53,161 nt of DNA from a virus, in the IMG/VR virus record IMGVR_UViG_3300042545_001591, positions 1-53,161 of that record; one strand, written 5' to 3'. Made by a program: the position numbers and the translations under genes. Numbering within the stretch: the stretch's first letter is position 1; every line of letters starts with the position of its first letter. The notes beneath the pieces are model-generated. The model was not told the origin of the DNA. It made no database searches and was given only the letters and a program-made list of their open reading frames with translations. Shown here in pieces: positions 21,938-41,142 of the stretch.

Positions 21938-22156
21938 ATGCGTGAACAAATAGGCAAAAACCAAAAATCTAGTCCTACTGACTTTTTAAAATCAGATACA
22001 GAATTTGCGCCGACTGCACTTCAACGCGAGCGTTACTCAATCTGCAAGGAATGCCCAGAACTTACGAAAGTTACAAAGCAATGCAAGCAATGTGGTTGTT
22101 TTATGAACTTAAAAGTGAAGCTTGGTCATGCAGTCTGCCCACTAGGTAAGTGGTGA
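21938..22156 (+). CDS. Small zinc-ribbon-like protein
   Basis: A 72-aa protein with ERYSICKECPELTKVTKQCK, QCGCFMNLKVKLGHAVCP and LGKW at the end. Cysteines fall as CxxC, then C-xx-C-x-C, then CP, a layout that can bind zinc. Similar small CKECP...CGCFM..K...CPLGKW proteins are common in phages near tail fibres or glycosyltransferases, with unknown function. GATAAT lies 8 bases before the ATG and no Shine-Dalgarno is obvious, so a leaderless start is possible. The 3' end overlaps the convergent glycosyltransferase by 15 bases, leaving no room for a terminator. Confidence 0.7.
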   Translation: MREQIGKNQKSSPTDFLKSDTEFAPTALQRERYSICKECPELTKVTKQCKQCGCFMNLKVKLGHAVCPLGKW

Positions 22157-23212
22157 TTTCAGCTCGTAGAAACCTTTGCCCCACAAAGTCATAAGGCGAG
22201 TGAAGTACTTTTCATAGAGAAGCGCATTTGTTTCCAAGCCGAACCTATCGACCGCATACTCACGAATGGCCTTGCGGTCCAAGCTCGGTGCCGCAACTGC
22301 TGCGTCAATGAATTCCTGCAATGTCCTGCAGCGAAAGCCGTTGACCCCATGAACTACGTTTTCGGGAAAAGCGCCCCAATCGGTTGTGATAACCGGAGTG
22401 CCACAGGCCATCGCCTCAGCCACAACTAAACCAAAAGGCTCGGTGTAAATAGTTGGCACAAATGAGGCAATTGCCCCACCCATGAGCCTTGCTCGCTCTT
22501 CGGTTCCAACCACCCCAACATACTCTCCGTAAGCAGGCGGAGTTCCCTGTCCAGCGACCACCAGACGCTTCCCAAGGGCCTTACAGACGTCTGCGGCTAT
22601 CTGATAGCCCTTTCGCTCTATAAGGCGTCCTATGAACAAATAGTAGTCATCTGGGGTTTCCCTGAATGGGAAGTCATTGATGTCCACATGGCCCGGAATT
22701 ACGTCGTCATAGAACTGCCCGTCTACGTCATGTGGGTTGGTGACCGCTGCTCCGTAGCAGACATGCATCCATGCGTAGGACTCAAAAACCTTGTATTTGG
22801 CAAAGATGCCACCATAGCCAACCTCAAACTCCACGGTCATATTGTTGGGAAAGGCGTCGGCTACTCCCTTGTGTGCCAGCCCGCCAATAACGCAAATAAA
22901 GTCTTTTGGTTGGATTCTTTTACCTATCTCGGCAATGATGTTCTTATTCATATTCTGCCAATGGGGCAAGGAATAGTCAAAAGAGGCGAGAGTGTAGTGG
23001 TTCCCGTTTAAGGACTGAAGACGCTCTTCTTCGGTGATGCACATAACGTGCTCAGTGCAGGGGGCTTCATTAAACTCCCCGCTGTACAAGAAAACTTCAT
23101 GACTCAAAGACGTCATCATTATTGCAAACTTACGGACATTCTCCGTAAACGCACATGACGTAAATTCTTTTGTCGTATTTGTGTGGGGGAGGCTAATTAG
23201 GTGAAATCTCAT
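22142..23212 (-). CDS. GT-B glycosyltransferase (GT4-like)
   Basis: A 356-aa retaining-type glycosyltransferase. The C-terminal half has the nucleotide-sugar domain: YYLFIGRLIERKGYQIA (about 191-207), RLVVAGQG (216-223) and EPFGLVVAEAMACGTPVI, the E-x7-E motif with Glu258 and Glu266. The N-terminal half would be the acceptor domain (FAIMMTSLSHEVFLYSGEFN). It is the last gene of the minus-strand block, 25 bases beyond the GT-A gene. Acceptor and sugar cannot be read from the sequence. Its setting beside oxygenases and adhesins suggests sugar addition to hydroxylated virion protein or to a surface glycan. Confidence 0.85.
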   Translation of the reverse strand: MRFHLISLPHTNTTKEFTSCAFTENVRKFAIMMTSLSHEVFLYSGEFNEAPCTEHVMCITEEERLQSLNGNHYTLASFDYSLPHWQNMNKNIIAEIGKRIQPKDFICVIGGLAHKGVADAFPNNMTVEFEVGYGGIFAKYKVFESYAWMHVCYGAAVTNPHDVDGQFYDDVIPGHVDINDFPFRETPDDYYLFIGRLIERKGYQIAADVCKALGKRLVVAGQGTPPAYGEYVGVVGTEERARLMGGAIASFVPTIYTEPFGLVVAEAMACGTPVITTDWGAFPENVVHGVNGFRCRTLQEFIDAAVAAPSLDRKAIREYAVDRFGLETNALLYEKYFTRLMTLWGKGFYELKSPLT

Positions 23213-23237
23213 TTATGACCTCGATTAAACATTTCTA

Positions 23238-23924
23238 TCACGGCATTAGAACTGATGATTTGAAATGCCCGACTTTAACCGCAGTGTCAACAACCGCATC
23301 AAAACCTGCATCTTTGGCTCTTTTAAACATTGCCGTATCTTCTGAAGTGACTATTCTCTTCATTACCCTTCCGTCGCTCGTTATGGTTTCTTCTTCTGCG
23401 TCGGCAAAATATGGGTTGTGGATGTTCTCGAAGACGCCCTGCTTGAAGCATACAAACCCAAAGCCGGCAGCATCTATGTTTACGTACTTTACGCTGGTGT
23501 TAAAATCTTCCATCTTTGCAAACCTGTAATCAAATATTGAGGCTTCCGAATCGTTGGCTGTTTCTTCCAAAATCTGCTGAGGGCTCTTCTTCACGACAAC
23601 AGACAGGCTTCCGTCGCCCCTAATTACATAAATTCCACTAGTAATCGTGTGTGGAGATTCAATAAGCGAACAAAAATCAGACACAGACCATTCGATGTCG
23701 CTATCTATCCAGAACATGTGGGTGTAGTCAGGGTGCTCAGTGAGGGCGCGAAATGCCAACTTGTCACGCAGTTGACCAACATGGGCTCCGCTTTCGTGAA
23801 GAAAGCTTAGTTCTATATTGTTTTGCGAACAGTATTTAACCGTGTCAAAAAAAGACCTTACATAACATGGGGAAAATTCTCGGGCAGGAGTGACGATAAC
23901 GACATTCCTATTGCTCTGAATCAT
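23238..23924 (-). CDS. GT-A-fold glycosyltransferase
   Basis: A 228-aa protein with a GT-A look: RNVVIVTPAREFSPCYVRSF at the N-terminus, HVGQLRDKLAFRALTEHPDY, then HMFWIDSDIEW with a DxD-type metal site at Asp74/Asp76, an ITSGIYVIRG segment, and a C-terminal SEDTAMFKRAKDAGFDAVVD followed by VKVGH, whose His is a likely metal ligand. The layout resembles glycosyltransferases found in other phage genomes. The ATG lies inside the end of the upstream oxygenase gene (17-base overlap), so the two are coupled. Together with the GT4-like gene it makes a two-enzyme set that copy B of the cassette lacks. Confidence 0.8.
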   Translation of the reverse strand: MIQSNRNVVIVTPAREFSPCYVRSFFDTVKYCSQNNIELSFLHESGAHVGQLRDKLAFRALTEHPDYTHMFWIDSDIEWSVSDFCSLIESPHTITSGIYVIRGDGSLSVVVKKSPQQILEETANDSEASIFDYRFAKMEDFNTSVKYVNIDAAGFGFVCFKQGVFENIHNPYFADAEEETITSDGRVMKRIVTSEDTAMFKRAKDAGFDAVVDTAVKVGHFKSSVLMP

Positions 23925-24693
23925 CTGTCAAATCTTTGCTTTGGGCTTCCGTCCATGTGAACTCGGTTTTTGGTTCCTCAAACACTTCGTGGTTAATAGT
24001 ATTTACTGGCGTGTCGTCAGTATTTTCCTCAAAGTCCAAACTCGTCGTGACAAAACAGCTAATTATCCACTTGTCCGAAGAATAAGGGACCAATCCCATG
24101 TGTGGGTGAGTCCAACTTGTAGGAAACAAAACAATTTTACCGATTTCCGCATCGACAGAACAATCATGAATTCTAAAACTTGTCCCCCCGCCATCGGTAA
24201 CGGTATTTAGGTAGACGACGACAGCTAAAACTCTTGTGTGGTTTTTGCCGTTTTCGTCCGGCCTTGGATAGTCCCATGGTAAACCGTCGACATGCTCTCT
24301 ATAGAAACCGTCATTTTTAAAGTACCTCTGAATTCTTAATCCAGTAATGTCCAGATTCGGGACAGACCAGAATTGTGGAAACATTTGGATGTAATCATTT
24401 ATGCACGACCATATGCGCGCATAGAGGTACTCACTGACTGCCGCATACTGGTGGTAATACTTGGTGGAATCAACCGTGTATATATTTGGGTCCATCAACC
24501 CAGTGTCCATACAGCGTTTAATGCCTGTATTCACGCCACCTATAGTCGGCCCCTGAGTAAAAAAGCCAACGTTTAAAAAATCTTCCAAAAGGTTAGACAC
24601 TAAAGATTCACATCTTTCTGCATCTAGAGCCTCCTTGTATTCGGCTATATATGAATATTTTCCAAGAGGAAAAGATGCTTTGGTTAATCCCAT
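23908..24693 (-). CDS. 2OG-Fe(II) oxygenase, prolyl 4-hydroxylase-like
   Basis: From ATG 24693 (preceded by AAAGGAAC; a TTG at 24729 is rejected) this encodes 261 aa. LRIQRYFKNDGFYREHVDGL holds the HxD pair His134/Asp136. VVVYLNTVTDGGGTSFRI is the conserved strand, and GKIVLFPTSWTHPHMG holds the distal His (most likely His198), with Lys208 (SDKWIISCFV) for the 2-oxoglutarate carboxylate. This is the P4H-type jelly roll. The family hydroxylates peptidyl proline or lysine, or small molecules. It lies between the dUTPase-like gene and the GT-A gene, which would fit hydroxylation followed by glycosylation. Copy B has no counterpart. Confidence 0.88.
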   Translation of the reverse strand: MGLTKASFPLGKYSYIAEYKEALDAERCESLVSNLLEDFLNVGFFTQGPTIGGVNTGIKRCMDTGLMDPNIYTVDSTKYYHQYAAVSEYLYARIWSCINDYIQMFPQFWSVPNLDITGLRIQRYFKNDGFYREHVDGLPWDYPRPDENGKNHTRVLAVVVYLNTVTDGGGTSFRIHDCSVDAEIGKIVLFPTSWTHPHMGLVPYSSDKWIISCFVTTSLDFEENTDDTPVNTINHEVFEEPKTEFTWTEAQSKDLTDDSEQ

Positions 24694-25463
24694 TTGCGTT
24701 GTTCCTTTCTGTATTTGCCCCTGCGCCAACTAGGGAGAAGAGGAATTGGTCCACCAAAACCTCTTTCGTAAATAAGCTTAAATACGTTCTCGTCACCAAC
24801 GTGCATTTTTGAAACATTATCAGAACGTTTAAAAAAAGTCATTTGGGCAATAGGGGTCCCCTGAGGAATGTAGAACTCTTTGTCCGTCAACACGTTTAAA
24901 ATTATATTGACCGTATGGTAATAATCCGTGTTTATTACTCCCGGGATTACGTCAAACTCGGGCCTTGGATTAAGAAGCGAACCAGTCAGAATGCTTGAAT
25001 ATCCTTTTGGCGTCATAAAGCAAAACGGATTCCCAAGCTTTATGTATTGCCCTTCGCCAACAGATGGGTTTCTTCTTTCCGTAAACGGACAGTCCCCTGT
25101 TTGTTTTCTTTCAAAATGCTGTATTGAGCCCATAATTTTTATGTTTTTTCTGTCGACATTAAACTCAGACTGAATGTCAATACCATTGGGATGAGGCCTT
25201 ACTCGTAGGTCGGCCCACAATGGGATGGTCACACCGTTATGCATCAGGTCTTGTCCGCCAGGGCAATACCTATAACCGTCCTCTAGAGGGGTTTTGGTCG
25301 TCCAGTCGTCTTTGGAGAACTTGTTCATGTAGGGCATAATATCTTCATCGCCTAACAACCTATTGTCTTCTGCGGTTATTAATATTTCCCCTGGCTTCAA
25401 CTTGGGTAACTGGTTTACCCTGGATACGCCATCTAGATAAACAACATTTTTAGAAGATTTCAT
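24684..25463 (-). CDS. Cassette protein with dUTPase-like motifs (copy A), function unknown
   Basis: A 259-aa protein from ATG 25463 (a TTG at 25481 is an alternative). It is homologous to 34655-35449: both have KPG...NR near the start, a Cys followed by GVTIP.W (here NGVTIPLWADLRVR), GDCP/GECP, NP..F.T...S and FKR. Residues 174-183 (PGVINTDYYH) and 202-207 (GTPIAQ) look like dUTPase motif 3 (G-I-D-x-D-Y-R-G) and the later G-x-x-IAQ strand. The catalytic Asp is replaced by Asn, so a dUTPase reaction is unlikely. It sits next to a halogenase in both cassettes, so a partner or substrate-binding role is my inference. Its stop overlaps the oxygenase start. Confidence 0.7.
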   Translation of the reverse strand: MKSSKNVVYLDGVSRVNQLPKLKPGEILITAEDNRLLGDEDIMPYMNKFSKDDWTTKTPLEDGYRYCPGGQDLMHNGVTIPLWADLRVRPHPNGIDIQSEFNVDRKNIKIMGSIQHFERKQTGDCPFTERRNPSVGEGQYIKLGNPFCFMTPKGYSSILTGSLLNPRPEFDVIPGVINTDYYHTVNIILNVLTDKEFYIPQGTPIAQMTFFKRSDNVSKMHVGDENVFKLIYERGFGGPIPLLPSWRRGKYRKEQRKWD

Positions 25464-26886
25464 GGTGGTATACGGTTTCAAGGTTCATGTTTGATTGTCT
25501 TATTTCGGAGAGACTAGATGAAGCATAGTGCCGATTCTGATAATAATCAAGAGACCGAGAACATGATTCCTTTGTTATCAAACCCTGCCCTTGCGCCACA
25601 TGCCAGAAGTGCGCTATCTGAAAAAGTTCATATCCACTCTGAGGGACGTCATTGGTGGAAGGGGGCCTTTCTGACCACAACTCTAAGAGCTCGGAAAGCA
25701 AAGGGGACCTTGGGGCACTTGCTGCGTCTTTCCAGAAACTGGTATCCCTTCTGTCCGATATGTAATGCATGCTCACCATGGCTATGAGGTTCTCGTGAAA
25801 ACTTTCCATAATCGAATTGTACTTTCGGGAAAGAGACGTAGAGCCGGGTTTGAAAAATGGAATAAAACTAGATAGCGCCTTAGCCTGCTGAATTGCCGTA
25901 GAAATACTCGTAGCCTCAAGTGGCTCCATAAAAGAACTGCTCAACCCAATGGCAACACAGTTGTTTACCCACTGCTTACTGGTGTACCCAGGATTAAACT
26001 TTATAACTCTTGGCTTATCGAGAACATGACCAGTGACTTGTTCTATCTCTTTTATTGCTTGCTCTTCGTCTAGATGACCAGATGAGAAGACGTAACCATT
26101 CCCACGTCTTTCCTGGGTAGGAATCTCCCACATCCAACCAGACGACATGGCGATAGCCCTGGTGTACTGCCTTATCAGACCGTTCGGGTCAGGTTTTGTC
26201 GGGAAAGGTATAGCCGTATCCGTAAGTAAATATCGTGATGCATCCACCCATTTGGCTTCGTCAAAATTCTTAATTAGGAACTTTGAAAACCCCGAAGCGT
26301 CTATCCAGAAATCAGAATAATATGTTTCTGAATTTGACGCAACCGACTGTATGTACCCGGTTTCATCAATCAAAGAAGAGACTAAGTCATCTATGAAAAT
26401 CTTTATATTTTTCCTGGAACAAATTTTTTGAAGATAATGATTCAGCTTAAATGTGTCAAAATGATATTGATTTGTGTTTCTATGGATATGTTCTGATTTG
26501 ACTACTTTTGTTTCAATAAACCCAGGATGAGTTATTGTGTTGGTGAGCAGCTTGCCTTGCTCATGAATGTATTCATACAGAGGTATGTTTTCATTTTTAA
26601 TAAAATAACCACTAATACTGTGAAAATAATCAGGAGTGTGATTGGTCCATTTCTCAAACCGAATACCAAGTTTGTGCGTAGCGGCAGTTTCCCTGACCAT
26701 CTCATCAATGTCTATTCCTGCTATTTCAACAAAGCTATGCCAATGCTCCGTACTACCTTCGCCAACTCCAATTATGCCAATAGTTTTTGACTCAATAATT
26801 GAAACGTCAAGCAAGGGAAGCTTGCTTTTTAGAACTATCGCCGCAACAAGACCAGCAGTCCCTGCCCCTACAACCATAACCTTCAT
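25450..26886 (-). CDS. Flavin-dependent halogenase (tryptophan halogenase family), copy A
   Basis: A 478-aa enzyme. VVGAGTAG (5-12) is the FAD GxGxxG; GVGEGSTEHW (40-49) is typical; Lys72 in THKLGIRFEKW aligns with the catalytic Lys (PrnA Lys79) that carries the hypohalous intermediate. GWMWEIP (250-256) is the family WxWxIP motif, and SSFMEPLEATSI (318-329) holds the conserved active-site Glu. The enzyme needs reduced FAD, O2 and halide; no flavin reductase is seen here, so the host would supply FADH2. It is slightly shorter than the usual ~510-540 aa. A viral member, VirX1 of a marine cyanophage, has been shown to halogenate small aromatics with preference for iodide. The substrate here is unknown. 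Confidence 0.93.
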   Translation of the reverse strand: MKVMVVGAGTAGLVAAIVLKSKLPLLDVSIIESKTIGIIGVGEGSTEHWHSFVEIAGIDIDEMVRETAATHKLGIRFEKWTNHTPDYFHSISGYFIKNENIPLYEYIHEQGKLLTNTITHPGFIETKVVKSEHIHRNTNQYHFDTFKLNHYLQKICSRKNIKIFIDDLVSSLIDETGYIQSVASNSETYYSDFWIDASGFSKFLIKNFDEAKWVDASRYLLTDTAIPFPTKPDPNGLIRQYTRAIAMSSGWMWEIPTQERRGNGYVFSSGHLDEEQAIKEIEQVTGHVLDKPRVIKFNPGYTSKQWVNNCVAIGLSSSFMEPLEATSISTAIQQAKALSSFIPFFKPGSTSLSRKYNSIMESFHENLIAMVSMHYISDRRDTSFWKDAASAPRSPLLSELLELWSERPPSTNDVPQSGYELFQIAHFWHVAQGQGLITKESCSRSLDYYQNRHYASSSLSEIRQSNMNLETVYHHEIF

Positions 26887-26889
26887 GAG

Positions 26890-27516
26890 CTACCTAAGCC
26901 ATGTTACGAAGGCATACTTGATGCCAAAATTGTTTTCCTCTACGGGGTGAGCTGTATGTCTATACAAATAGTTTGACGGAAACAAAACCATAGAACCAGC
27001 AGAGGGAGAAACCTTTATGCCGAAATAATCAAACTCCAATTCGCCTCCGTTGAAGTCGTCATTAAACCACCCGACACAGCTAAGAATGCGACCATTTTCC
27101 GAGCCGTAATCACAATGAGAACTGTATTCTCCACCGCTTGGGTATTTTAATACTCTGTATCCTTCGTCGGTAGACAGCTCAAGGCTGTACTTATCACGAT
27201 AATGATAAACCGCTGCGTCTATGTTCTTGAATATTTTTTTCCAGAGTACTGCTGCCGGTTTCATTCTTGGAATATTTTCTATTTTGTTAGCTTGCAGGGG
27301 GTTCAACTCCATTTGTACAGACATTCTGTACGATGAAATTTTACCGTTGTCAGTTTCTGAATTTTCCCACATCAAGTATGGCCAGTCTTCTTTTGACTCA
27401 GATTCAATAAGTTCTATGATGTTTTCAGGTGAAAATATGTTTTTGTACATAATTACGCCAGGGGCCAACTCTACTATTTCTGAGCTTTCTATAATTTCGT
27501 TAACAGACATCATCAT
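26890..27516 (-). CDS. 2OG-Fe(II) oxygenase of the cassette, copy A
   Basis: A 208-aa protein. KYPSGGEYSSHCDYG gives the HxD pair His134/Asp136; GGELEF (158-162 region) is the strand typical of this family; SMVLFPSNYLYRHTAHPVEE gives the distal His190, and Lys200 follows for 2-oxoglutarate. It therefore has a complete iron site. Copy B (36963-37544) has the same motifs and length class, and both sit directly upstream of a halogenase. Three ATGs in a row mark the start; it overlaps the upstream 147-aa gene by 17 bases. The substrate is unknown; peptidyl hydroxylation of the co-encoded adhesin is a hypothesis. Confidence 0.87.
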   Translation of the reverse strand: MMMSVNEIIESSEIVELAPGVIMYKNIFSPENIIELIESESKEDWPYLMWENSETDNGKISSYRMSVQMELNPLQANKIENIPRMKPAAVLWKKIFKNIDAAVYHYRDKYSLELSTDEGYRVLKYPSGGEYSSHCDYGSENGRILSCVGWFNDDFNGGELEFDYFGIKVSPSAGSMVLFPSNYLYRHTAHPVEENNFGIKYAFVTWLR

Positions 27517-27943
27517 TTACCGTAAAATCAAAAGTGTGAATAATCTTATCTTTATACCAAACGCAAATAGCACAATCTCCCGGCGCACCAAAATTAAGCC
27601 CAAAATGAATAGAATGCCTATTTATTTTTTTTACATCTAGAAATCTGTGCCCATTTGGCTCTCCCACAATGTAGAGAAAAAGACTAATTTTTACATCATC
27701 ATCAAATACGAGAAATTCGTTTTTGTAATCAATCCGAATTAATTGATTTACCTTGACAGGAGAATGAGAAAACTTTATTGAATGCTCTGTTGGGATAGAA
27801 ATCGGACGAGGGGTGTCTCTGTCAAAAATCAAATCTTTGGTTCTCTCGTTGTCGCCGATAAGTATGGGGGCGACGTGGAGTCTAGATAATTCCTCTGCTG
27901 TGGGAAGCATTTCTTCTGTTGGACAAAAAATTACTGTATCCAT
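27500..27943 (-). CDS. Unknown cassette protein (copy A, ~147 aa)
   Basis: From ATG 27943 (a TTG at 27955 is possible) this encodes 147 aa. I do not recognise a family. The N-terminus is short and polar (MDTVIFCPTEEMLPTAEELS); the rest alternates beta-type segments (QLIRIDYKNEFLVFDDDVKI, LFLYIVGEPNGHRFLD, IHFGLNFGAPGDCAICVWY, KIIHTFDFTVND). It holds the same slot as the 138-aa protein of copy B (37541-37957), which has a similar beta-rich look and SLRF/SIHF-like and WKY/WYK-like segments, but identity is too low for me to claim homology. It could be a small jelly-roll or chaperone for the neighbouring oxygenase. Confidence 0.6.
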   Translation of the reverse strand: MDTVIFCPTEEMLPTAEELSRLHVAPILIGDNERTKDLIFDRDTPRPISIPTEHSIKFSHSPVKVNQLIRIDYKNEFLVFDDDVKISLFLYIVGEPNGHRFLDVKKINRHSIHFGLNFGAPGDCAICVWYKDKIIHTFDFTVNDDVC

Positions 27944-27969
27944 AAATAGACACAATAGCAGTTAATTCT

Positions 27970-28218
27970 TTATTCCGCCTGAAGTCGAGCAAGGCTGGCC
28001 CGTGTAGTCTTTATTCCTACAACCAACATTCGGAAATGAGTTGAATACATATAAGACTCGCCGTCTTCAGGAACTTCAAAAGTATCCATGTCTACGGTGA
28101 GAGGGTCTATCCCTGACTGTATGCAAGTTGTGAAAAAATTAGAGTACGCGGTCTCTAGCGCTTTGGTAAGGAGATTTACTGTTTCTTCTGTCGTTATTTC
28201 GTCTCTTAGTTCTGGCAT
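27970..28218 (-). CDS. Unknown small helical cassette protein (copy A)
   Basis: An 82-aa protein with a good ribosome site (GAGGAAAA) before its ATG. It is largely helical (TVNLLTKALETAYSNFFTTC, TRASLARLQAE) with GIDPLTVDMDTFEVPEDGES in the middle. The 75-aa protein of copy B (37954-38181) has the same pattern: helix, NVDPETFDEEVGF, helix ending in L...KVKITEL. Both follow a long Gly-rich adhesin, so an adhesin-specific assembly factor is possible (inference). Confidence 0.6.
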   Translation of the reverse strand: MPELRDEITTEETVNLLTKALETAYSNFFTTCIQSGIDPLTVDMDTFEVPEDGESYMYSTHFRMLVVGIKTTRASLARLQAE

Positions 28219-28227
28219 TTTTCCTCT

Positions 28228-30357
28228 TTAAGCGTTAATTATTATTTTTGTACTAGAAGACAAGGATTGAGTAAGCCCCCATGAATCAGTAACAACAATT
28301 ATACCGCCTTCTAGGCCGGTAGAACCAGCGTTACCCATGGTCCCCGCTAGACCATTGGTGCCAGCATTGGGTGCTCCATTGGTTCCGGGGTTCCCAGGGT
28401 TGCCTGCACCACCAACCGTTCCTGCGTTACCGGCAGCTCCAGGATTTCCTGCTGCGCCTCCGTGTCCAGTTCCGTTATTCCCATGATTACCTGCTACGCC
28501 GGCGTTGCCGGCAGTTCCATGGTTCCCTGCTGTTCCTGCTGCGCCGTTATGCCCATGACCATTTGTACCAGAATTACCGGCTGCGCCACCATAACTGGTC
28601 GCAACAGCATTCTGCCCGTAGTGGGTGTTATGGTTATGCCCTGCACCGTGTCCGTTGAATTCATTATGTCCTAAACCTATGAAAAAGTGGTTGACGTTTG
28701 CTGGGTTTGCGCCACGAGGCCATGTTCTGTTTGCGGGTGCACCAGTATAGTGAAAAGCATGTTCGGTCGAGTTTCTCCATGAATGTCTAGGAAAATGTGC
28801 ACTGTTTGATTCGTTAGCAGGGCGACCACCGGAACCACCAAATGTTCTCATATGACTATAACCTGAGACATGGAACGCATGGGCGTTGGAAGCAGCATTG
28901 GGGTTTCCTGCCTGCGAGACATACTGGTAATAAGTGTCATTTACTCCCGCATTGCCAGCTGCACCTGCAGTGGCCCCAGTTCCGTTAGCGGCCCCCGTTC
29001 CTGCTGTTCCATTTGTTCCTGCGTTGGCTACTCCAGGGTTTGCTCCGCCTGCGGTGGCACCGCTTCCGCCGTGGCCTCCAGTTCCTACGTTTCCGGGGTT
29101 TCCTGCATTGCCTGGGACGAGAGTTCCCACAACTCCGGCCCCACCGGACGTAGCACCAGTCCCTGCAATCCCAGGATTACCTGACGCACCTGCAGTTCCA
29201 TGAGAACCAACCCCGCCAGGTTGTCCAACATTAACAACAGAGCCAGAGCCAGAAATATATTTAGCCACAATCAAAACAACGGGTCCTCCTCTTCCTCCCG
29301 TGCCACTTACTCCAGGGTTTCCTGCGTTGCCTGCGGCTCCAACAGTTCCAGCGTTGCCCGCTAAACCTGCCGCACCAAAATGTCCTGCGTTGGGCGCACC
29401 ACTGTTTCCTGGGTTACCTGCATTGCCTGCGTTTCCTGCCGTACCGGCATTTCCTGCTGCACCCGCGTGTCCAGTTCCGCCATGTCCTGTTCCGTTGGTT
29501 CCTGGATTGCCATGGTTTCCTGCAGTGCCTGCGTTCCCTGCTGCACCATTGTTGCCGTGGTTTCCGGCGTGCCCATAACCATAAAGACCATAAGAATTGT
29601 GTGTGTTGCCGTGGTTCGAACCAGACGGAATGTGTATTCCACCAGCAGTAGCTCCCGTTCCTGCCGCTCCTGGGTTGGCCCCACCAGCACCTCCTGCGGT
29701 AGCTCCACTTCCTCCGTGCCCACCAGTACCGTTACTGCCACCTGTTCCTGGGTTTCCTGCATTTGCTACTCCAGCTCCTCCAGCACCACCAAGGTTTGCT
29801 CCAGTTCCAGCAATTCCAGGATTGCCTCCCGTGCCAGGATTTCCTGCAACCCCTGGAACTAGGGTTCCTGGATTTCCTAGCGTGCCACTGGTTGCACCAC
29901 TTCCATCTGCACCCTTGTCGCCACCAGAAAGCACACGAATCGAACCAGCATTATCTACAAAATAACCACGAATTGATTTTTCCAAATCATTCAGTGTTGC
30001 CAGGTCGATTGGATTAGCTGAAGTCTGACTCAAGCTGTAAGTAACAATAGAAGCAGCCCCACCAGCCACTGTTCCTGACGGGATTAAGGACGTATGCGAA
30101 AGAGTGGCTCCGATGGTTCCGTTGTTGGTTAAGGTCCCTTTAACAAAGACTCGAAAGCCGTTTGTGATTACAGTGCAACCGCTGTTGACCGTTAGGTTTT
30201 CGTAGTACATGTCTCTGGACAAAACAGTTGGAGTTCCAGTGTTTGAAACAATTACAGTTCCGTCTGTCCCTTGTCCATACACAGAGTCGTTTCCAAGTCT
30301 CTGTGTGTACTCTTTAGATTCCGTACCAGGTCTAAACCTGACAACTCCAATTCCCAT
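28228..30357 (-). CDS. Long glycine-rich adhesin (cassette copy A)
   Basis: A 709-aa protein. The N-terminal ~110 residues (RLGNDSVYGQGTDGTVIVSN, DMYYENLTVNSGCTVITNGF, RVFVKGTLTNNGTIG) form a beta domain shared with three other proteins here. From about 145 to 690 the chain is mostly Gly-X-Y-like repeats rich in Asn, Thr, Ala and Pro (GNPGTGGNPGIAG, GNAGTAGNAGNAGNPG), interrupted at about 365-375 by GGPVVLIVAKYISG and at about 470-585 by a Tyr/Trp/His-rich insert (YYQYVSQAG, HFPRHSWRNSTEHAFHY). Such chains may fold as polyglycine-II bundles, as in the S16 gp38 adhesin, or as collagen. GNPG units place Pro before Gly, the site class of collagen prolyl hydroxylases. It is a likely receptor binder. 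Confidence 0.8.
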   Translation of the reverse strand: MGIGVVRFRPGTESKEYTQRLGNDSVYGQGTDGTVIVSNTGTPTVLSRDMYYENLTVNSGCTVITNGFRVFVKGTLTNNGTIGATLSHTSLIPSGTVAGGAASIVTYSLSQTSANPIDLATLNDLEKSIRGYFVDNAGSIRVLSGGDKGADGSGATSGTLGNPGTLVPGVAGNPGTGGNPGIAGTGANLGGAGGAGVANAGNPGTGGSNGTGGHGGSGATAGGAGGANPGAAGTGATAGGIHIPSGSNHGNTHNSYGLYGYGHAGNHGNNGAAGNAGTAGNHGNPGTNGTGHGGTGHAGAAGNAGTAGNAGNAGNPGNSGAPNAGHFGAAGLAGNAGTVGAAGNAGNPGVSGTGGRGGPVVLIVAKYISGSGSVVNVGQPGGVGSHGTAGASGNPGIAGTGATSGGAGVVGTLVPGNAGNPGNVGTGGHGGSGATAGGANPGVANAGTNGTAGTGAANGTGATAGAAGNAGVNDTYYQYVSQAGNPNAASNAHAFHVSGYSHMRTFGGSGGRPANESNSAHFPRHSWRNSTEHAFHYTGAPANRTWPRGANPANVNHFFIGLGHNEFNGHGAGHNHNTHYGQNAVATSYGGAAGNSGTNGHGHNGAAGTAGNHGTAGNAGVAGNHGNNGTGHGGAAGNPGAAGNAGTVGGAGNPGNPGTNGAPNAGTNGLAGTMGNAGSTGLEGGIIVVTDSWGLTQSLSSSTKIIINA
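28330..29905 (-). repeat. Glycine-rich triplet repeat region of adhesin A
   Basis: Degenerate 9-base units encode Gly-Asn-Ala/Pro, Gly-Thr-Ala and Gly-His-Gly through most of the gene. The reverse strand reads as Pro/Ala/Val-rich frames that are artefacts. The unit sequence varies in third codon positions, but short exact repeats occur, so length change by recombination is likely. Confidence 0.8.
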
Positions 30358-30359
30358 TG

Positions 30360-31094
30360 TTATACCAACTGCATGTAGTTATAAGTACCAGTATTCGCTC
30401 CGGTTACATCTGTAGAGACATTGCTCGGCAAGGAAGAACCGCTAGAAATAACAAGAATTACTCCGCCGCCGCCAGGAGAGGTTGCTGGTGCCGCAATTTT
30501 AGCATTCACGGATACTGCTGTAGAAACAATGTAGCGAGCAGCGATTATTACTACTCCTCCGCCTGCCTGCCCTGTTCCGCCTGCTCCACCGCGAAGAAAA
30601 GTTGGTCCACCAGACGCTGTAATCGAATATCCGCGAATTGCTTGAATTGGCTGTTTGTAGTACTCAACCCCACCCATGGCGGCAGTTGGTGGCGTAGCGG
30701 TGTAAGTAGCCAAAGCGTTCCCGCCGAGACTATGGGTTACTGAAGTAGCAGCGGCTCCGCCTTGCTCTATGGAGCCTGCAGTCGAAAACCCAGTCGTGTA
30801 ACCGATTACTGAAGCCTCGCCAAGACTTAGCTGTCCCTTTACCAATATCCTGTAACCAGCCGGGTCTAGACGAATAGACGTATCGATAGATAATGAATCA
30901 AGAAACAAGTCTCTGGTCATTGTAAAAACAGAAGAAGAATAAGTTAACCCAAGAGAAGCAGAGTACGTTCCTCCACTCCCAGACGTTGTTGACAGAACTG
31001 CAGCACCATCGGCCCCTGTTCCGTAAATGGAATCAGGAGCGTCAATGAAAGCCGAGAAGGCCGTCAACACTGGATATCTTGATACTCCGGCCAT
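30360..31094 (-). CDS. Virion beta protein with Gly-rich end (copy A, paralogue of 39802-40509)
   Basis: A 244-aa protein with close similarity over its whole length to the 235-aa protein of copy B: MAGV.RYP at the start, D.IYGTGADGAAVL, TRDLFLDSLSIDTSIRLDP, GYRILVKGQLSLG, SLGG, the shared ASGGPTFLRGGAGGTGQAGG / VIIAARYI segment, and the identical end YMQLV. The N-terminal domain also matches that of the long adhesin encoded next to it, so the two genes look like an internal duplication with and without the long Gly-rich region. It probably forms a short companion fibre or a platform for the long one. Confidence 0.7.
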   Translation of the reverse strand: MAGVSRYPVLTAFSAFIDAPDSIYGTGADGAAVLSTTSGSGGTYSASLGLTYSSSVFTMTRDLFLDSLSIDTSIRLDPAGYRILVKGQLSLGEASVIGYTTGFSTAGSIEQGGAAATSVTHSLGGNALATYTATPPTAAMGGVEYYKQPIQAIRGYSITASGGPTFLRGGAGGTGQAGGGVVIIAARYIVSTAVSVNAKIAAPATSPGGGGVILVISSGSSLPSNVSTDVTGANTGTYNYMQLV

Positions 31095-31096
31095 GA

Positions 31097-31432
31097 CTAA
31101 AGGGTGTAGCCGTTTACCGTTACCGTAATAGCGGCATTCTCACTGACAAAATAAATAATGTCGTCTAGGGCTAGAGAAGTGTTCGTGTTGTAAGTAATCG
31201 TCTCTTTAGGGGAAACGCTCATTTGTGACAAGATTCTTTGCGCAGCAACATCGCTGGATACGGTATTAGCGGCGACACCTACTGTTATCCAGTATGCGGT
31301 ACTTGCGCTTGTGTTGCAGATGATTATCTGCTTTACTACTCCGGCAGCCGTGGCTGTATAGGCACCTGTAGCCCCAGAACTAAAAGTTGTAACGGTGGCC
31401 TTGGGACCGAACCGATAAGGAACTACTGACAT
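31097..31432 (-). CDS. Small beta-sandwich virion protein (copy A)
   Basis: A 111-aa protein (TGAYTATAAGVVKQIIICNT, AYWITVGVAA, MSVSPKETITYNTNTSLALD, AAITVTVNGYTL). The pattern T...vkqIiicNt...t....g, then ...e.it.n....l, then vtvnG is shared with the 124-aa protein of copy B and the 101-aa protein at 43887-44192. This type of small beta protein is common in phage structural regions and may decorate fibres or virion surfaces; a function is not proven. Confidence 0.65.
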   Translation of the reverse strand: MSVVPYRFGPKATVTTFSSGATGAYTATAAGVVKQIIICNTSASTAYWITVGVAANTVSSDVAAQRILSQMSVSPKETITYNTNTSLALDDIIYFVSENAAITVTVNGYTL

Positions 31433-31672
31433 TTAGATGACCTCCATGAGAAATATTACTTCAGTATCGTCTGCACGCACGTTAGTCGGGCCACTTGCTC
31501 CGGGGACTCCAGACGAACCTACAGGACCAGTTGGGCCTGAAGGACCTTCAGGGCCCTGGGTCCCACCAATCCCAACATTGAGTGCCCACTTGCCGTCCGT
31601 GTACGACCAGGTTTTGCCGTCAACTGTAAAGTTGTCACCGGGAGCAGGGGAGTTGGGAAAATCGATAGCCAT
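31433..31672 (-). CDS. Short DFPNSP-tag fibre protein with collagen segment (copy A)
   Basis: A 79-aa protein from ATG 31672. A longer frame to 31738 is rejected because [15 protein letters not shown] matches the start of the 338-aa fibre and a TATAAT box lies 7 bases before this ATG. The N-terminal tag (DFPNSPAPG, then GKTWSYTDGKWAL) is followed by a collagen piece (GTQGPEGPSGPTGPVGSSG) and a short tail ending in MEVI. The 85-aa protein of copy B has the same tag and an end in MEVF, but no collagen segment. The tag is probably a docking domain. Confidence 0.7.
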   Translation of the reverse strand: MAIDFPNSPAPGDNFTVDGKTWSYTDGKWALNVGIGGTQGPEGPSGPTGPVGSSGVPGASGPTNVRADDTEVIFLMEVI

Positions 31673-31679
31673 GCCTGCA

Positions 31680-31700
31680 ATTATACCCTGAACTGATTGA
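31680..31700 (-). promoter_or_regulatory. Candidate leaderless promoter, copy 1 (TATAAT, 7 nt before ATG)
   Basis: On the minus strand the box TATAAT (complement of 31680-31685) lies exactly 7 bases before the ATG at 31672, so transcription would start at about the ATG. CAATCAGTTC followed by AGGG lies directly upstream of the box. The same block occurs before the 338-aa fibre gene. No Shine-Dalgarno is present in the 7 bases. Confidence 0.6.
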
Positions 31701-31763
31701 GGGGAACCATAAGAAACAAGGTGGCAATATAATGCCAATTGAAGAAATCAAAAACTATGGTCG

Positions 31764-32039: not shown

Positions 32040-33056
32040 CTAGACAACATACTCAATAATGACAGCGCCATTTGAACCCATGTTCGCAAGGGTGGTGCCT
32101 GTGTACCCATTAGCCATGCCCACGGTAAACGAGTAGACAGTTGACGGAACGGTAGTTACTTGAAAAACTTCCGTTACTCCATCCTGCCCACGACTCGCTT
32201 CTATTCTTCCCGAAACCCTAGTATAAACAAGGTCACCACTATCCTGCTCTCTAGTCTCCACAGCAACAGCAGTTGCGACACCACCAATTCCTCCAGAGCC
32301 AGGGTATCTATTTTCTGCGTCAAAATTGGATGTATTGTTACTTGAACTGCCACTAAGTTTAGTTCCGTAAATAATATCACCAGTAATAGTCTCGGTTTTA
32401 ATCGGTCCCTGTTTGCCCCCAAGAGCGGTATATGTAGTCCCACCAGCAACAAAGGTTGTTGAGCCACCATCTTCGTAGCCCATCATGGAAGTCGCGGATA
32501 CAGTAGCGTAGTTGGTTACTGTAAGTGTGGCAAATCCTTGCCCACCGCCTGCACCAATAAGTGTCAGTTTTATTTGCGTGACACCAGCAGGACAAGTCCA
32601 TGTTCCGCTACCGTTTGTTGTGTACTTTGTAACATAGATTTTGGGGTCCACAGCACTGACTCCTGGGACTCCGCTAACCCCAGGCACGCCACTAACCCCT
32701 TGCGGACCAGTTGCACCGGTCGGTCCTCCCGCAGGACCCGTGGCTCCCGTTAAGCCAGTCGGACCAGTCGGACCTGTCAGACCAGTGGGCCCAGCTATTC
32801 CTGTTGGTCCAGTAATTCCTGTTGGTCCAGCAATTCCTGTTGGCCCTGTTGCCCCAGTCAAACCTGTTGGTCCAGTTGCACCAGTAGGCCCAGTGGGACC
32901 CCCTGCAGGCCCTGTTGCTCCTGTTGGACCTGTCGGGCCAACAACGCCCATAGTGCTTACAAAAAGAGCCCATTTTCCGTCAGTGAATGTCCACGTTTTA
33001 TTGTTTGTCGTAAACGATGCGCCCGGCGCAGGTGAGTTGGGGAAATCGATAGCCAT
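32040..33056 (-). CDS. Collagen-stalk fibre with glycine-rich tip
   Basis: A 338-aa fibre. Residues 1-31 are the DFPNSP docking tag ([15 protein letters not shown], then [10 protein letters not shown]). Residues about 38-140 are Gly-X-Y collagen repeats ([26 protein letters not shown]). The C-terminal ~190 residues form a beta/Gly-rich head ([37 protein letters not shown]) ending [11 protein letters not shown], a type often seen at phage fibre tips. A TATAAT box lies 7 bases before the ATG. GVPG units put Pro in the Y position, so this is another candidate for prolyl hydroxylation by the nearby oxygenases (inference). Confidence 0.8.
32640..32945 (-). repeat. Collagen-like Gly-X-Y coding repeat
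   Basis: About 34 Gly-X-Y triplets in the 338-aa fibre, mainly GPT, GAT, GLT, GIA and GVS/GVP. The gvs/gvp block at the downstream end also occurs in the 1180-aa fibre, suggesting exchange of collagen blocks between fibres. Confidence 0.8.
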
Positions 33057-33532: not shown

Positions 33533-34651
33533 TTAGTTATAGGTCATATAAGAAAGAAGTGCTTTTTTTGCTGCTATTTCCTCGGCACCTGTTGGGCGCA
33601 CTGTTGGAATAAGTAAGTTTTCGGACTTCTCAATAAACTCAAAAATTTCTTCTGCCGTCGTATTGCTGCTGTCTATCTTAAAATCCAAACAAGTTTTATA
33701 TATAACGCCTTCTATTTTAGAATTCTCTACCGCTAAAACGTTTGAATCAATGGTTATATCCTGTGGGTAATTTGCAACGAGGGAATTCAGGGAAATATAG
33801 CGCAGTTTTTTTCTAAGCCAGTCAAGAAATAGTGGGCTTATGTCTATCTGTTCAATAAAGTCTTGCCTCGGGTTATCTGTTTCTAGGAGGTATCTGTAAA
33901 CCGGCATGTTTTCTTGATACTCGTTAATCTCGTCAATAACTTCTGGGGGCATTTTTATCGCCTCAAGATAACTCTTTGCATCAAGCGCTATTTCATCCGT
34001 AACGTTAAAAGGTTCTTCGGCCAAAGAAGCCCACTCGATTACTAGTTTCATGCAGCCCATAAAAGTCTTTGACATGCCAACCACGGCAGGCCAGTCTCTA
34101 TAGGAAGTTCCGATATCGGAAACCCGCATGTAGCTGACAGTAGATGTTCCAGCAACACTCAGCAAGCTTGCAACCCGTTTAATTGTGTTGTTGTTTATTT
34201 TATTTAGGTCAGCTATGAATGGTTTTATCCCATCTCCCACCGGATACGCCATCGCCATGAATAAATGTGTTTCGCACCTGTTCTTGTAGTCCCAATACGC
34301 ATTGACAAATTTTGACTCTACTTGCTGCTTCATTGACACTGAATTATAGAAAGAAAACGTATCACTTTCAAGATGACTGGACATAAATGCATATTCATAA
34401 AAATGCTCGTAAGGCATCCACTGGACGATTGATTCGCCCTCTTCGTTAACGAGAACATAATTGTAGTCAGTCTTTCCCAGGTCGAAATTACGAAAAGCAA
34501 TTATCTGGTAGTTATCTGCAATAAAGATGTCATATTCCGTATATTCAACATCTCCGTTTGGGTGTCTTATGTAAAGTTTGAAGTCGTCCAAGGATTCATG
34601 AACGTAGTAGCAACCATAAAGAGATGGGTCTATTTGAGACGTGTTATTCAC
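33533..34651 (-). CDS. Unknown 372-aa protein between the two cassettes
   Basis: The GTG start follows AAGGAAGT. The N-terminal ~110 residues are Tyr- and acid-rich beta-type sequence (YGCYYVHESLDDFKLYIRHP, YDIFIADNYQIIAFRNFD); the rest looks helical, with RCETHLFMAMAYPVGDG and NNNTIKRVASLLSVAGTSTV. I recognise no family and no catalytic motif. It has no counterpart in copy A, where the oxygenase and glycosyltransferase genes occupy the equivalent downstream position, so it may be the accessory gene of copy B (inference). It starts three bases beyond the dUTPase-like stop. Confidence 0.6.
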   Translation of the reverse strand: MNNTSQIDPSLYGCYYVHESLDDFKLYIRHPNGDVEYTEYDIFIADNYQIIAFRNFDLGKTDYNYVLVNEEGESIVQWMPYEHFYEYAFMSSHLESDTFSFYNSVSMKQQVESKFVNAYWDYKNRCETHLFMAMAYPVGDGIKPFIADLNKINNNTIKRVASLLSVAGTSTVSYMRVSDIGTSYRDWPAVVGMSKTFMGCMKLVIEWASLAEEPFNVTDEIALDAKSYLEAIKMPPEVIDEINEYQENMPVYRYLLETDNPRQDFIEQIDISPLFLDWLRKKLRYISLNSLVANYPQDITIDSNVLAVENSKIEGVIYKTCLDFKIDSSNTTAEEIFEFIEKSENLLIPTVRPTGAEEIAAKKALLSYMTYN

Positions 34652-34654
34652 TTT

Positions 34655-35449
34655 TTACTTCCTTTTGAGTATTTTTTTAATTATACCTTTTTGTTCAGAC
34701 TGCTTATCTAAAGCATTATCAACAATTACCCTATTGCGACGATAAGGACCAGCAGTCCCATCGCTTGGGGCAACGTGCCCTGTCCCAAACCCTGTTGTAG
34801 CAACGTATTTAAAGTAAGACTCGTCGTTGAAGATTATTTCCCCAAAGTCGGAGTTGCGCTTAAACGGAACTACCTGACACATCGGTGTTCCGTATTTTAT
34901 GGAAAACGGCCTATCACCAATAGGGTTAATAACCATGTTTGCTAAGTGGTAGAAATCCGTATGAACGATTGACGGAACGAGCGTGTAGTCCTCGTTTGGT
35001 TCCCAGTACGGTGGGAGAATCATCGACGACCAGCCTGGGGCTGTTTCAAAGCGCCACGGATTAATTATCTTTGGGTATTGGCCCGTTGCTACTTTTCTGA
35101 CAGCAGTCATTGGGCATTCACCGGTGGAGTGAGCAGAAAATCCTGATATTGAATTTATCCCAGCTTGTGGTGCAAAATCGTCCCCCGCCGTTTCCCATGT
35201 CTCGCCATTTGGGTCTAGACGGAATCTAAAATTTGTCCACATAGGAATAGTGACGCCAGCAGTAAGAAAATCTATTGTTCCAGCGCATTTGCGAATGGAG
35301 CCCTGATGCTTACCAATTTTCTTAAACCACATAGGAGGATTCTGTACTGTGTTAACAAATGGAGGCATCTCCATCAATCTGTTATCCATCGGTGTGAATC
35401 TTATTTGTCCAGGTTTTACTGGCGGCATCTTGGTCATTATTGGTTCCAT
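34655..35449 (-). CDS. Cassette protein with dUTPase-like motifs (copy B), function unknown
   Basis: A 264-aa homologue of 24684-25463. Shared blocks are VKPGQIRFTPMDNRL, CAGTIDFLTAGVTIPMW, GECPMT, INPWRFETAPGWSSM, and VPSIVHTDFYHLANMVINP. The last aligns with dUTPase motif 3 but has His where the catalytic Asp should be; YGTPMCQVVPFKR aligns with the later G..IAQ strand. Loss of that Asp in both copies, in different ways, argues for a binding or scaffold role. The ATG overlaps the halogenase end by 13 bases; an internal ATG at 35434 is an alternative start. The constant halogenase neighbour is the main clue to its job. Confidence 0.7.
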   Translation of the reverse strand: MEPIMTKMPPVKPGQIRFTPMDNRLMEMPPFVNTVQNPPMWFKKIGKHQGSIRKCAGTIDFLTAGVTIPMWTNFRFRLDPNGETWETAGDDFAPQAGINSISGFSAHSTGECPMTAVRKVATGQYPKIINPWRFETAPGWSSMILPPYWEPNEDYTLVPSIVHTDFYHLANMVINPIGDRPFSIKYGTPMCQVVPFKRNSDFGEIIFNDESYFKYVATTGFGTGHVAPSDGTAGPYRRNRVIVDNALDKQSEQKGIIKKILKRK

Positions 35450-36945
35450 TCTTTGTCAATCAACACAATTTCCCGCAAAGCAGTAGCGTGGTCGACTTGT
35501 TCGCCACTATTCCGATTTGCTTTGTATTCTGCAATTTTTTTCTCAACGCTTTGCCGTATCCCAAGCCTATTGAGGGCAGTGGTGGCCGCATCTGGATTGA
35601 TGGCGTTTTGACCTTGAGCAACATGCCACAAGTGTGCCGACAAAAACATCTCGCCGTTTAATGCACTAAAATCAAATCTGGTTGGTGGACGCTCCGCCCA
35701 TAACTCAATCATCTCCTGCAATTCTTCATTGAGTGGCGTTACTGACATTTCCCGCCAAAATGGAGTGTCCTGCCTATCCGAATAATAATGGAGACGAACC
35801 ATCGTAAGAATATTGCGCATCATTATTTTCATGCTGGCGTTAAAGTGTTTCTGAGATGCTGTGTGCCCAGGTTGATACGAAGCAAGATAGGGGACAATTT
35901 GTTTTACTTGCTGAATTGTTGAACCTATGCTAGAGGCCTCTAATGGCTCCACAAAAGAAGAAGCCAGCCCGATTGCACAACAGTTCTTTACCCATGTGTT
36001 CTTTAGATAGCCCGCGTCAAAATTAATAACACGATGGGCTTCAATCTTGTAGCCGGACATCTCTTCGGCTTCACGTACCGCTTCTTCTTCGGTTATAAAT
36101 TTAGACGAAAATACGTATCCGTTTCCACGCCGTTCTTGAGTGGGGAGTTCCCAGAGCCACCCGGAAGAGGCAGCACGAGCACGTGTGTAGGGACGAATTC
36201 TTCCGTTGGGGTCAGATTCCGTAGGAAACGCAATTGCCGTATCGCACAAAAGATGGTCACTGAAAGAAGACCAATCATCTGCCCCAAGTTTTTTCATCAA
36301 TATTCTGCTAAAGCCACTAGCGTCAAACCAAAAGTCTGACGCAATGGTTTCATTTGATTTGGTTACTACGGATAGTATATTTCCGTTTTCGCTATCAAGA
36401 TTAATAGAATCTACTTCTGCCTCAATAAACTCAATCTGTCTCTTGAACGCCAGAGTAATTAGATAATTATTTAGCTTATGCGTATCAAAATGGTATTGAT
36501 TTGTAGACCGGTGCATTCCCGCTTTGCTGATTTTGTCTTTTACCAATGCAACGTTCGTAATCTGTGGGGTCAAAAGCTTCCCCTCTTCCAGATATTGCAT
36601 ATAAGTTGCGTGTGCTCCAAAAGCATAAATATCATCTACGTCACCTACGCTATGAAAATAGTCAGGATTTTTTGTTGTCCAGTTTTCAAATCTAATTCCG
36701 TACTTATGCGTACCAGCTGTCTCGACAAGCATTTCTTCAATAGGGATGTCACATAGGTCAGCAAACTGACGCCAGTGTTCCGTGCTTCCCTCACCTACAC
36801 CAATAATCCCAATTTTTGAAGACGAGATAACTTTTATCCCAGCTATGGGAAAGGCTTTGCGCAAAATTAAAGAAGCAAGCAGTCCTGCTGTTCCAGACCC
36901 GACGATGGTAATAATAAATGGTTTTTTTTCTTGTTTGTAATCCAT
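35437..36945 (-). CDS. Flavin-dependent halogenase (tryptophan halogenase family), copy B
   Basis: A 502-aa enzyme homologous to copy A. IVGSGTAG (14-21) binds FAD; GVGEGSTEHW (49-58) and THKYGIRFENW (79-89) match copy A with catalytic Lys81. The WxWxIP motif appears as GWLWELP (262-268), with Leu for Ile. CAIGLASSFVEPLEASSI holds the active-site Glu. All key residues are therefore kept in both copies. The N-terminus is longer by nine residues. Identity between copies is clearly partial, so the duplication is not recent, or the copies came in separately. Substrate may differ between copies, matching the different adhesins. Confidence 0.93.
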   Translation of the reverse strand: MDYKQEKKPFIITIVGSGTAGLLASLILRKAFPIAGIKVISSSKIGIIGVGEGSTEHWRQFADLCDIPIEEMLVETAGTHKYGIRFENWTTKNPDYFHSVGDVDDIYAFGAHATYMQYLEEGKLLTPQITNVALVKDKISKAGMHRSTNQYHFDTHKLNNYLITLAFKRQIEFIEAEVDSINLDSENGNILSVVTKSNETIASDFWFDASGFSRILMKKLGADDWSSFSDHLLCDTAIAFPTESDPNGRIRPYTRARAASSGWLWELPTQERRGNGYVFSSKFITEEEAVREAEEMSGYKIEAHRVINFDAGYLKNTWVKNCCAIGLASSFVEPLEASSIGSTIQQVKQIVPYLASYQPGHTASQKHFNASMKIMMRNILTMVRLHYYSDRQDTPFWREMSVTPLNEELQEMIELWAERPPTRFDFSALNGEMFLSAHLWHVAQGQNAINPDAATTALNRLGIRQSVEKKIAEYKANRNSGEQVDHATALREIVLIDKEWNQ

Positions 36946-36962
36946 AACTGAATCTTACTCTA

Positions 36963-37544
36963 CTAGCAAAACCATGTCACTAGAGAGTGCTTAACGCCTT
37001 CAAGGACGGGATGGGCAACATGCAAGTAGGGGAAATTTGAAGGAAACATAAGAACCGAACCTGTTTTCAGCTTGACGGTCACATCAAAGGTGGGAAACTC
37101 TAATTCTCCGCCACTTTCGGCTTCCCCAAGGGATGCGACAATACTAAAAACACGCCTATTGTCTCTCCAGTGGTCATAGTGAGCACGATATTCTCCTCCT
37201 TGGTAGTATTTGAGGATTGCAAATTCTTCAGGGATGGCGTCCTCTATCATGAATTCTTGACGGTAATCTTCGGCGACCGCCATGCAGGGTAAAAAAATGT
37301 TTTTTTGGTAGAAATCAGATAATTCAGTTTTTTCATACGGAGGGAGCAAAGACGTAAGAACACAATTAATAGAAGTTCTAGTATCGGTCGTTGACCCTGC
37401 TCCGGTTTTACCGTAGTCCCATTCGAGGCCGGACCACTCGTTCGCAGTTTCTTCTTCTACTTTAGCTAAGAACTCAATCGCTACTGATTCAGGGAACACG
37501 TCTTCATACAGGGATACGCACGGTGCTATTTTTGTATTTTTCAT
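36963..37544 (-). CDS. 2OG-Fe(II) oxygenase of the cassette, copy B
   Basis: A 193-aa protein. LKYYQGGEYRAHYDHWRDNR contains His122/Asp124; SGGELEFPTFDV is the family strand; SVLMFPSNFPYLHVAHPV contains distal His178, and Lys185 (EGVKHSLVTW) follows for 2-oxoglutarate. The C-terminal half aligns well with copy A; the N-terminal half is divergent, which may reflect a different substrate. Its ATG overlaps the upstream stop as ATGA, so it is coupled to the 138-aa protein. The halogenase follows after 17 bases. Confidence 0.87.
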   Translation of the reverse strand: MKNTKIAPCVSLYEDVFPESVAIEFLAKVEEETANEWSGLEWDYGKTGAGSTTDTRTSINCVLTSLLPPYEKTELSDFYQKNIFLPCMAVAEDYRQEFMIEDAIPEEFAILKYYQGGEYRAHYDHWRDNRRVFSIVASLGEAESGGELEFPTFDVTVKLKTGSVLMFPSNFPYLHVAHPVLEGVKHSLVTWFC

Positions 37545-41140: not shown

Positions 41141-41142
41141 GA

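Follow-up and report, generated by a model that had tools for sequence, protein, structure and literature searches.

On which molecule does the halogenase of a tailed phage act? This question is raised by a gene at positions 25450–26886 of the window, that is, the whole stretch of 53,161 nucleotides analysed here, which is an IMG/VR virus record (IMGVR_UViG_3300042545_001591). The halogenase family, and phage halogenases as such, are already known, and for the role of the viral enzymes reviews have offered guesses that involve antibiotics, secondary metabolites or changes to the metabolites of the host (PMC2984593, PMC7824862, PMC10452541). We examined the gene product, its neighbours and the corresponding loci of other viruses, and found the halogenase gene to be one of several in a cassette linked to the gene of a Gly-rich fibre protein, which may be the substrate of the enzyme.

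The halogenase and its predicted structure

The region 25450–26886 is a single complete open frame of 478 codons, which starts with ATG and lies on the minus strand (the first-pass annotation of this DNA gave no strand); the plus strand of the same region contains stops throughout. Its product, HAL_A (478 aa), matched PF04820 (Trp_halogenase) at E = 9.1e-99 in the Pfam profile search and phrog_2928 at 4.9e-97 in the PHROG profile search. When the PDB sequences were searched, 30 distinct halogenase sequences matched, the best being BrvH (1.2e-54), and VirX1 was found at 1.3e-32. The motifs named in the first-pass annotation were all located: the FAD motif GxGxxG is GAGTAG (residues 7–12), the catalytic Lys is K72, the WxWxIP motif is WMWEIP (251–256), and the EPLE segment spans E321 to E324. 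Among 33 diverse viral homologues that were aligned, G7, G9, G12, K72, W251, E254, P256, E321, P322, L323 and E324 are invariant, and W253 and I255 are nearly so.

Structure prediction, which had been suggested as a check, gave the same picture. The AlphaFold2 model of HAL_A (pLDDT 93.0, pTM 0.92) had halogenases exclusively as its top Foldseek matches, with TM-scores on the query of 0.82–0.90; PyrH, BrvH, PrnA, 2PYX and RebH are among them. A plain monooxygenase fold lacking the Lys and the Glu is thus not what HAL_A shows, as K72 and EPLE are kept in a halogenase fold. By family, predicted fold and catalytic residues, HAL_A is a real and complete flavin-dependent halogenase, and it looks active. 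PrnA, RebH, PyrH and Thal share the fold, the FAD motif, the catalytic Lys and the EPLE glutamate with it; these enzymes, however, take free Trp and are encoded in natural-product clusters, whereas the window is without natural-product genes. The closest solved relatives by sequence are BrvH and the Shewanella protein 2PYX, which are cellular enzymes. In the alignment with AbeH, the position of the Phe that follows the conserved His is occupied by Ile91 in HAL_A; we take this to be the Trp-sandwich position of the Trp halogenases.

The flavin reductase family PF01613 was found neither in the window nor in 14 large related virus records by a profile search that was positive in 13 of 14 control genomes, in agreement with the earlier observation that no flavin reductase is seen. 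The view that phage halogenases are rare was not upheld: viral relatives were found in 66 cultured-phage records and 136 IMG/VR stretches.

Two units of one module in the window

Self-comparison of the window revealed that the halogenase gene is part of a module present twice, with both copies on the minus strand. The order common to the two units, A and B, is a Gly-rich adhesin, an Ig-like protein (SM), a prolyl-4-hydroxylase-like oxygenase (OG), the halogenase (HAL) and a dUTPase-fold protein (DUT), and most adjoining genes overlap or almost touch. The first-pass annotation, sound on the enzyme family, the motifs and the missing flavin reductase, had overlooked this two-copy cassette with its oxygenase and dUTPase-fold protein, as well as the comparable locus of VirX1.

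Unit A begins with a tail-collar-like small protein (31433–31738; phrog_3449, 4e-11), which is similar to the small protein of unit B at 40883–41164, and with a small structural-type protein (31097–31432; 40% identity over 60 aa to its counterpart at 40509–40883, which occurs in 37 loci). These are followed by a short paralogue of the adhesin N-terminus (30360–31094), 57% identical to that of unit B (39802–40509), and by adhesin A (28228–30357), a Gly-rich fibre protein of 709 aa with an Asn/His-containing variable block, whose N-terminal domain is common to adhesin B and 28 viral homologues. An 82-aa protein with homologues in 7 loci (27970–28218) separates adhesin A from SM_A (27500–27955; likely ATG at 27943). 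OG_A (26890–27516), HAL_A and DUT_A (24684–25481; likely ATG at 25466) complete the unit.

After its two small proteins and the short paralogue, unit B continues with adhesin B (38190–39800), a Gly/His-rich fibre protein of 536 aa recognized by composition and alignment; SM_B (37541–37957), aligned as the partner of SM_A; OG_B (36963–37544; PF13640, 3.2e-11), 33% identical to OG_A; HAL_B (35437–36945); and DUT_B (34655–35449; phrog_7084, 2.9e-25), 34% identical to DUT_A. The next gene (33533–34651), also on the minus strand, has no Pfam match and was found in 31 loci. HAL_B (502 aa; Pfam, 1e-100) is 47% identical to HAL_A and carries K81, WLWELP at 263 and EPLE at 333. In the tree, the two halogenases fall into two different supported subclades, so the pair is either old or acquired from two lineages; on the same ground, we rejected the idea that this phage duplicated its cassette recently. 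A 100-kb sister IMG/VR record contains both halogenases in the arrangement seen in the window.

Other genes of the window deserve mention. Downstream of DUT_A, the region 22142–24729 encodes a third 2OG-Fe(II) oxygenase on the minus strand (23908–24729; PF13640, 1.6e-9), which overlaps the end of DUT_A and has homologues near the cassette in 24 loci, together with a protein weakly matching a glycosyltransferase-like PHROG family and a glycosyltransferase of group 1; these are possibly further surface-modifying enzymes. Between the two cassettes lies a collagen-like GPTG-repeat protein (32040–33056), a possible additional hydroxylase substrate. A phrog_2295 protein is encoded at 46032–46889, where no halogenase adjoins it; the same family also matches Gly-rich proteins beside the halogenases of two loci of our survey, L005 and L024.

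Proteins encoded next to the halogenase

OG_A matched PF13640 at 1.6e-13, and the iron triad HxD...H and the 2OG-binding Lys could be read in its sequence (HCD, HTAHP and K). Its best PDB match was the Bacillus P4H (2.3e-4), and EGLN1 matched weakly. OG_A thus appears closest to the bacterial prolyl 4-hydroxylases, i.e., enzymes acting on peptidyl proline.

The model of SM_A (AlphaFold2 pLDDT 89) consists of a small beta-alpha-beta element and an Ig-like sandwich. Foldseek returned IPT/TIG, DBB and filamin-like domains at TM-scores of about 0.37–0.49; these generic Ig-like matches to the model assign no function to SM_A. Homology of SM to the small protein that precedes the cyanophage halogenases, including those of the VirX1 locus, was ruled out (hhalign 0.1%).

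DUT_A matched the Pfam dUTPase family at 1.1e-6 and phrog_7084 at 1.8e-23. Its motif III reads VINTDYYH, and alignment to dUTPases indicated that the catalytic Asp is replaced by Asn; this position is His in DUT_B and in the consensus of the dUTPase-fold family. Members of the family also occur beside ribonucleotide reductase in S-RIM4 and HRTV-5. In the latter, a haloarchaeal Halorubrum tailed virus (L175), the dUTPase-fold gene lies three genes from a Gly-rich protein matching the adhesin N-terminal model, and no halogenase was seen in the 12.6 kb in view.

Linkage between halogenase and adhesin genes

The association was surveyed from both ends. With HAL_A as the seed, the IMG/VR scan yielded 136 relatives, the best 80 of which formed 34 clusters at 80% identity. 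Within these clusters, an adhesin homologue occurs at most 9 kb from the halogenase in 30, a 2OG oxygenase in 31, a dUTPase-fold gene in 31 and SM in 27. Three others (L005, L024 and L033) have another Gly-rich protein instead, which is of the PF21722 type in L024, in the order Gly-rich protein, diverged 2OG-like oxygenase and halogenase; the oxygenases of L005 and L024 match PF13640 below the curated cut-off. For the last cluster, the contig is too short (1.1 kb upstream).

The opposite scan was seeded with the adhesin N-terminal domain alone, and its best 80 matches were taken. Counted were the 67 adhesins that either had sufficient flanking sequence or showed a halogenase, five short contigs without a halogenase being set aside. 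A halogenase was found within 9 kb of 66 of them, an oxygenase near 66 and a dUTPase-fold gene near 64, although these counts, like those of the first scan, come from the best 80 matches and are therefore not population frequencies. The sole exception, L104, begins at a contig end. Halogenases and long adhesins are present at 1:1 in 15 large records, with two of each in the window and in the 100-kb sister record. The linkage is also kept where the cassette is inverted (L123, L124, L127 and L128) and where it is placed before the adhesin (L070, L099 and L171). These observations show that the linkage is near-obligate in the phage group of the window.

A cellular origin of the cassette was considered and rejected. 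The scan of GTDB with the halogenase alignment gave five MAG contigs only, and at least three of them carry the phage-type cassette and thus look like viral contigs binned into MAGs. As a host clue, the photosynthesis family PF00124 (psbA/psbD) was sought by profile search in the 14 large related records and was found in none.

In the variant cassette of L024 (8568–9628), the halogenase is directly followed by an Asp/Asn beta-hydroxylase (PF05118) and a protein that, judged by eye, is sulfotransferase-like. L090, a marine MAG contig, has two tandem halogenases arranged much as at the VirX1 locus, and no Gly-rich protein was seen up to 9 kb from them.

Architecture of the adhesin

Besides Gly-rich blocks, the adhesins have an N-terminal domain that is conserved and a middle block, which may contain up to 43 His per 100 residues. 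Gly and His each make up 17% of the residues when 71 distinct middle blocks are considered. His is present in all 71 (2 to 102 residues each), Tyr is missing from one, and Trp is missing from 25. In adhesin B, 54 His were counted in the 250-aa variable block, using the identical protein of the sister record (L093). Between adhesins whose halogenases are at least 80% identical, the mean identity is 77% in the middle block, as against 91% in the N-terminus and 88% in the C-terminus. An aromatic-x-Gly-Gly sequence closing the variable block is frequent but not invariant.

This layout resembles that of the polyglycine tip adhesins (gp38 of the T2/S16 type), in which Gly-rich conserved blocks flank a faster-changing segment and which are likewise encoded in the tail-fibre region; S16 gp38 is reportedly a known adhesin of this architecture. 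The present proteins differ in their extremely His-rich middle and in having no detectable sequence match to solved gp38; a profile search of the adhesin against the solved structures gave no convincing match, gp38 included. The adhesin label is thus a putative one, based on composition, position and architecture. The middle block resembles what would be expected of a host-range tip, and a part in receptor binding is suggested on that ground. As Trp is absent from 25 of the 71 variable domains, it is not a general target there, and Trp as the universal target was ruled out; His or Tyr are the candidate target residues. A Gly/His-rich protein is also known from the halogenated, cross-linked jaws of Nereis (Nvjp-1; PMC13120676), which serves as an analogy only: it is an animal protein, and no sequence relation to the adhesin is claimed.

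Cyanophage and pelagiphage loci

The tested phage enzyme VirX1 of cyanophage Syn10 (PDB 6QGM) belongs to the same enzyme family as HAL_A, and its locus is comparable to those of the window: Gly-rich tail adhesins are followed by halogenases (two in tandem in Syn10), after which come a dUTPase-fold gene belonging to the DUT family (hhalign 99.3%) and numerous genes of the 2OG-oxygenase type. The differences are that VirX1 is about 26% identical to HAL_A and of a different halogenase clade, and that the adhesin family is another one. The tree places the 33 aligned viral halogenases in one supported clade and VirX1 in a separate supported clade.

In Syn9, Syn10, P-TIM40, S-CREM1, S-WAM1, S-SZBM1, Sf-FR1 and P-RSM6, one or two halogenases are immediately preceded by a small gene and by one to three genes for Gly-rich adhesins. 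In Syn9, Syn10, P-TIM40, S-CREM1 and Sf-FR1, the dUTPase-fold gene comes next, and 2OG-oxygenase-type genes then follow. The halogenase of S-SRM01 is flanked on one side by a fibre gene and on the other by one annotated as a gp37-gp38 adhesin tip. The halogenase is not adjacent to an adhesin in P-SSM2, S-H38, HTVC008M, S-RIM44, S-PM2, Syn1, S-MbCM6, S-H35, S-SSM7 and S-SCSM2R. The association with adhesins therefore recurs in more than one halogenase lineage, yet it is not universal, and these roughly ten cyanophage and pelagiphage enzymes located elsewhere mean that a role on adhesins may not be universal either.

Two points of annotation arose here. In S-PM2 (L173, about 9.9–11.4 kb), the halogenase is divided between two open frames (75 and 410 aa), is given no CDS in RefSeq and looks broken. 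The family phrog_274 is named DNA endonuclease V, yet it matches a 2OG-oxygenase-like protein (weak PF13640) beside the halogenase in L024 (6434–7051), in Syn9 and in other cyanophage halogenase loci; in the fibre loci of cyanophages, several genes annotated as "DNA endonuclease V" may in fact encode oxygenases.

Discussion

The enzyme family, the catalytic residues, the gene order, the near-obligate linkage and the 1:1 copy number are observed features of these loci. Taking them together, we consider it somewhat probable that the hydroxylase and the halogenase modify the neighbouring Gly/His-rich tail adhesin post-translationally. The first-pass annotation had proposed to assay peptides of adhesin A as substrates, and this idea gains support as a genetic link, the two genes being neighbours almost without exception in the phage group. 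The adhesin would then be the substrate. The order of the steps, the residue targeted, the halogen used and the advantage gained may be pictured as follows. The host would supply FADH2, halide, O2 and 2-oxoglutarate. The 2OG-Fe(II) oxygenase would most likely hydroxylate Pro, Asn or His side chains of the adhesin, and the halogenase would most likely add Cl or Br to His or Tyr (or Trp where present) in the hypervariable tip. The Ig-like SM and the dUTPase-fold DUT might be accessory helpers of the two enzymes. The modification could alter how the tip binds its receptor or metals, or how stable it is.

Some flavin-dependent halogenases are known to take ribosomal peptides as substrates (MibH, SrpI and ChlH; PMC12615548, PMC12518702). 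MibH acts after proline hydroxylation, and VhaA requires prior beta-hydroxylation (PMC12615548); the pairing of a halogenase with an oxygenase fits this order of steps. The substrates of MibH, SrpI and ChlH are short RiPP precursors with Trp targets, and a leader is needed by SrpI, not by MibH; in contrast, the candidate substrate here is a virion adhesin of 350–1070 aa. The conserved neighbours of the halogenase, covered down to open reading frames of about 50 aa, are the large adhesins and the small SM, and no RiPP-like precursor was found among them.

The halogenase might instead be an auxiliary metabolic gene whose product halogenates free tryptophan, an indole or some other small metabolite of the host to give a signal or an antimicrobial, its proximity to the adhesin reflecting a variable host-interaction island. 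Halogenases of known substrate mostly take free Trp or indoles, and in vitro VirX1 acts on many small aromatic compounds (PMC8407142). The literature has proposed either antibiotic protection or the formation of a halogenated secondary metabolite (PMC2984593, PMC7824862), and several cyanophage halogenases have no adhesin linkage. An island of this kind, however, leaves unexplained why the halogenase is paired 1:1, and almost obligatorily, with a single adhesin family, and why the pairing survives inversion and the exchange of the Gly-rich protein for another. The closest solved relatives, BrvH and 2PYX, are moreover not classical free-Trp enzymes, and the phmmer alignment of HAL_A to PrnA stops at PrnA residue 447, before the C-terminal part. 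We therefore regard action on a small molecule as unlikely. That the linkage is inherited hitch-hiking, an ancestral operon of genes with unrelated tasks, would suit the single supported clade of the 33 aligned halogenases; the pairing nevertheless outlasts inversion, reordering and replacement of the Gly-rich protein, and it is seen again in further halogenase lineages, namely the VirX1 clade and that of S-SRM01, which makes this explanation very improbable.

Hydroxylation of aromatic adhesin side chains in vivo, with no halogenation, is another conceivable activity of the HAL protein. Bromide and iodide are scarce in fresh water, which would favour such a peptidyl monooxygenase. In the profile search, HAL_A also weakly matched LodB, QhpG and GoxB, which are flavoproteins that modify proteins, and QhpG is reported to dihydroxylate peptidyl Trp (PMC7876137). 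These matches, however, cover mostly the nucleotide-binding part, and the halogenase-specific Lys, WxWxIP and EPLE are kept and nearly invariant; we judge this activity to be quite improbable.

Modification of the adhesin is accordingly the reading we prefer. In the literature searched (most subscription journals lie outside it), we found no published link between adhesins and phage halogenases, no mention of its near-obligate character and no extension to VirX1. The linkage names a concrete candidate for the native substrate of viral halogenases, which is testable by mass spectrometry of virions. If the reading is true, protein halogenases and hydroxylases suited to Gly/His-rich polymers could be drawn from these cassettes. 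More broadly, there is a real but slightly less than even chance that aquatic tailed phages use dedicated hydroxylase-halogenase cassettes to halogenate the adhesins with which they bind receptors, probably in part at His residues of His-rich hypervariable tips, and thereby present a host-recognition surface with non-standard halogenated residues. In that case, the native substrate of VirX1 and of the other viral halogenases linked to adhesins would be named as well. Phages would then vary receptor binding by chemistry besides mutation.
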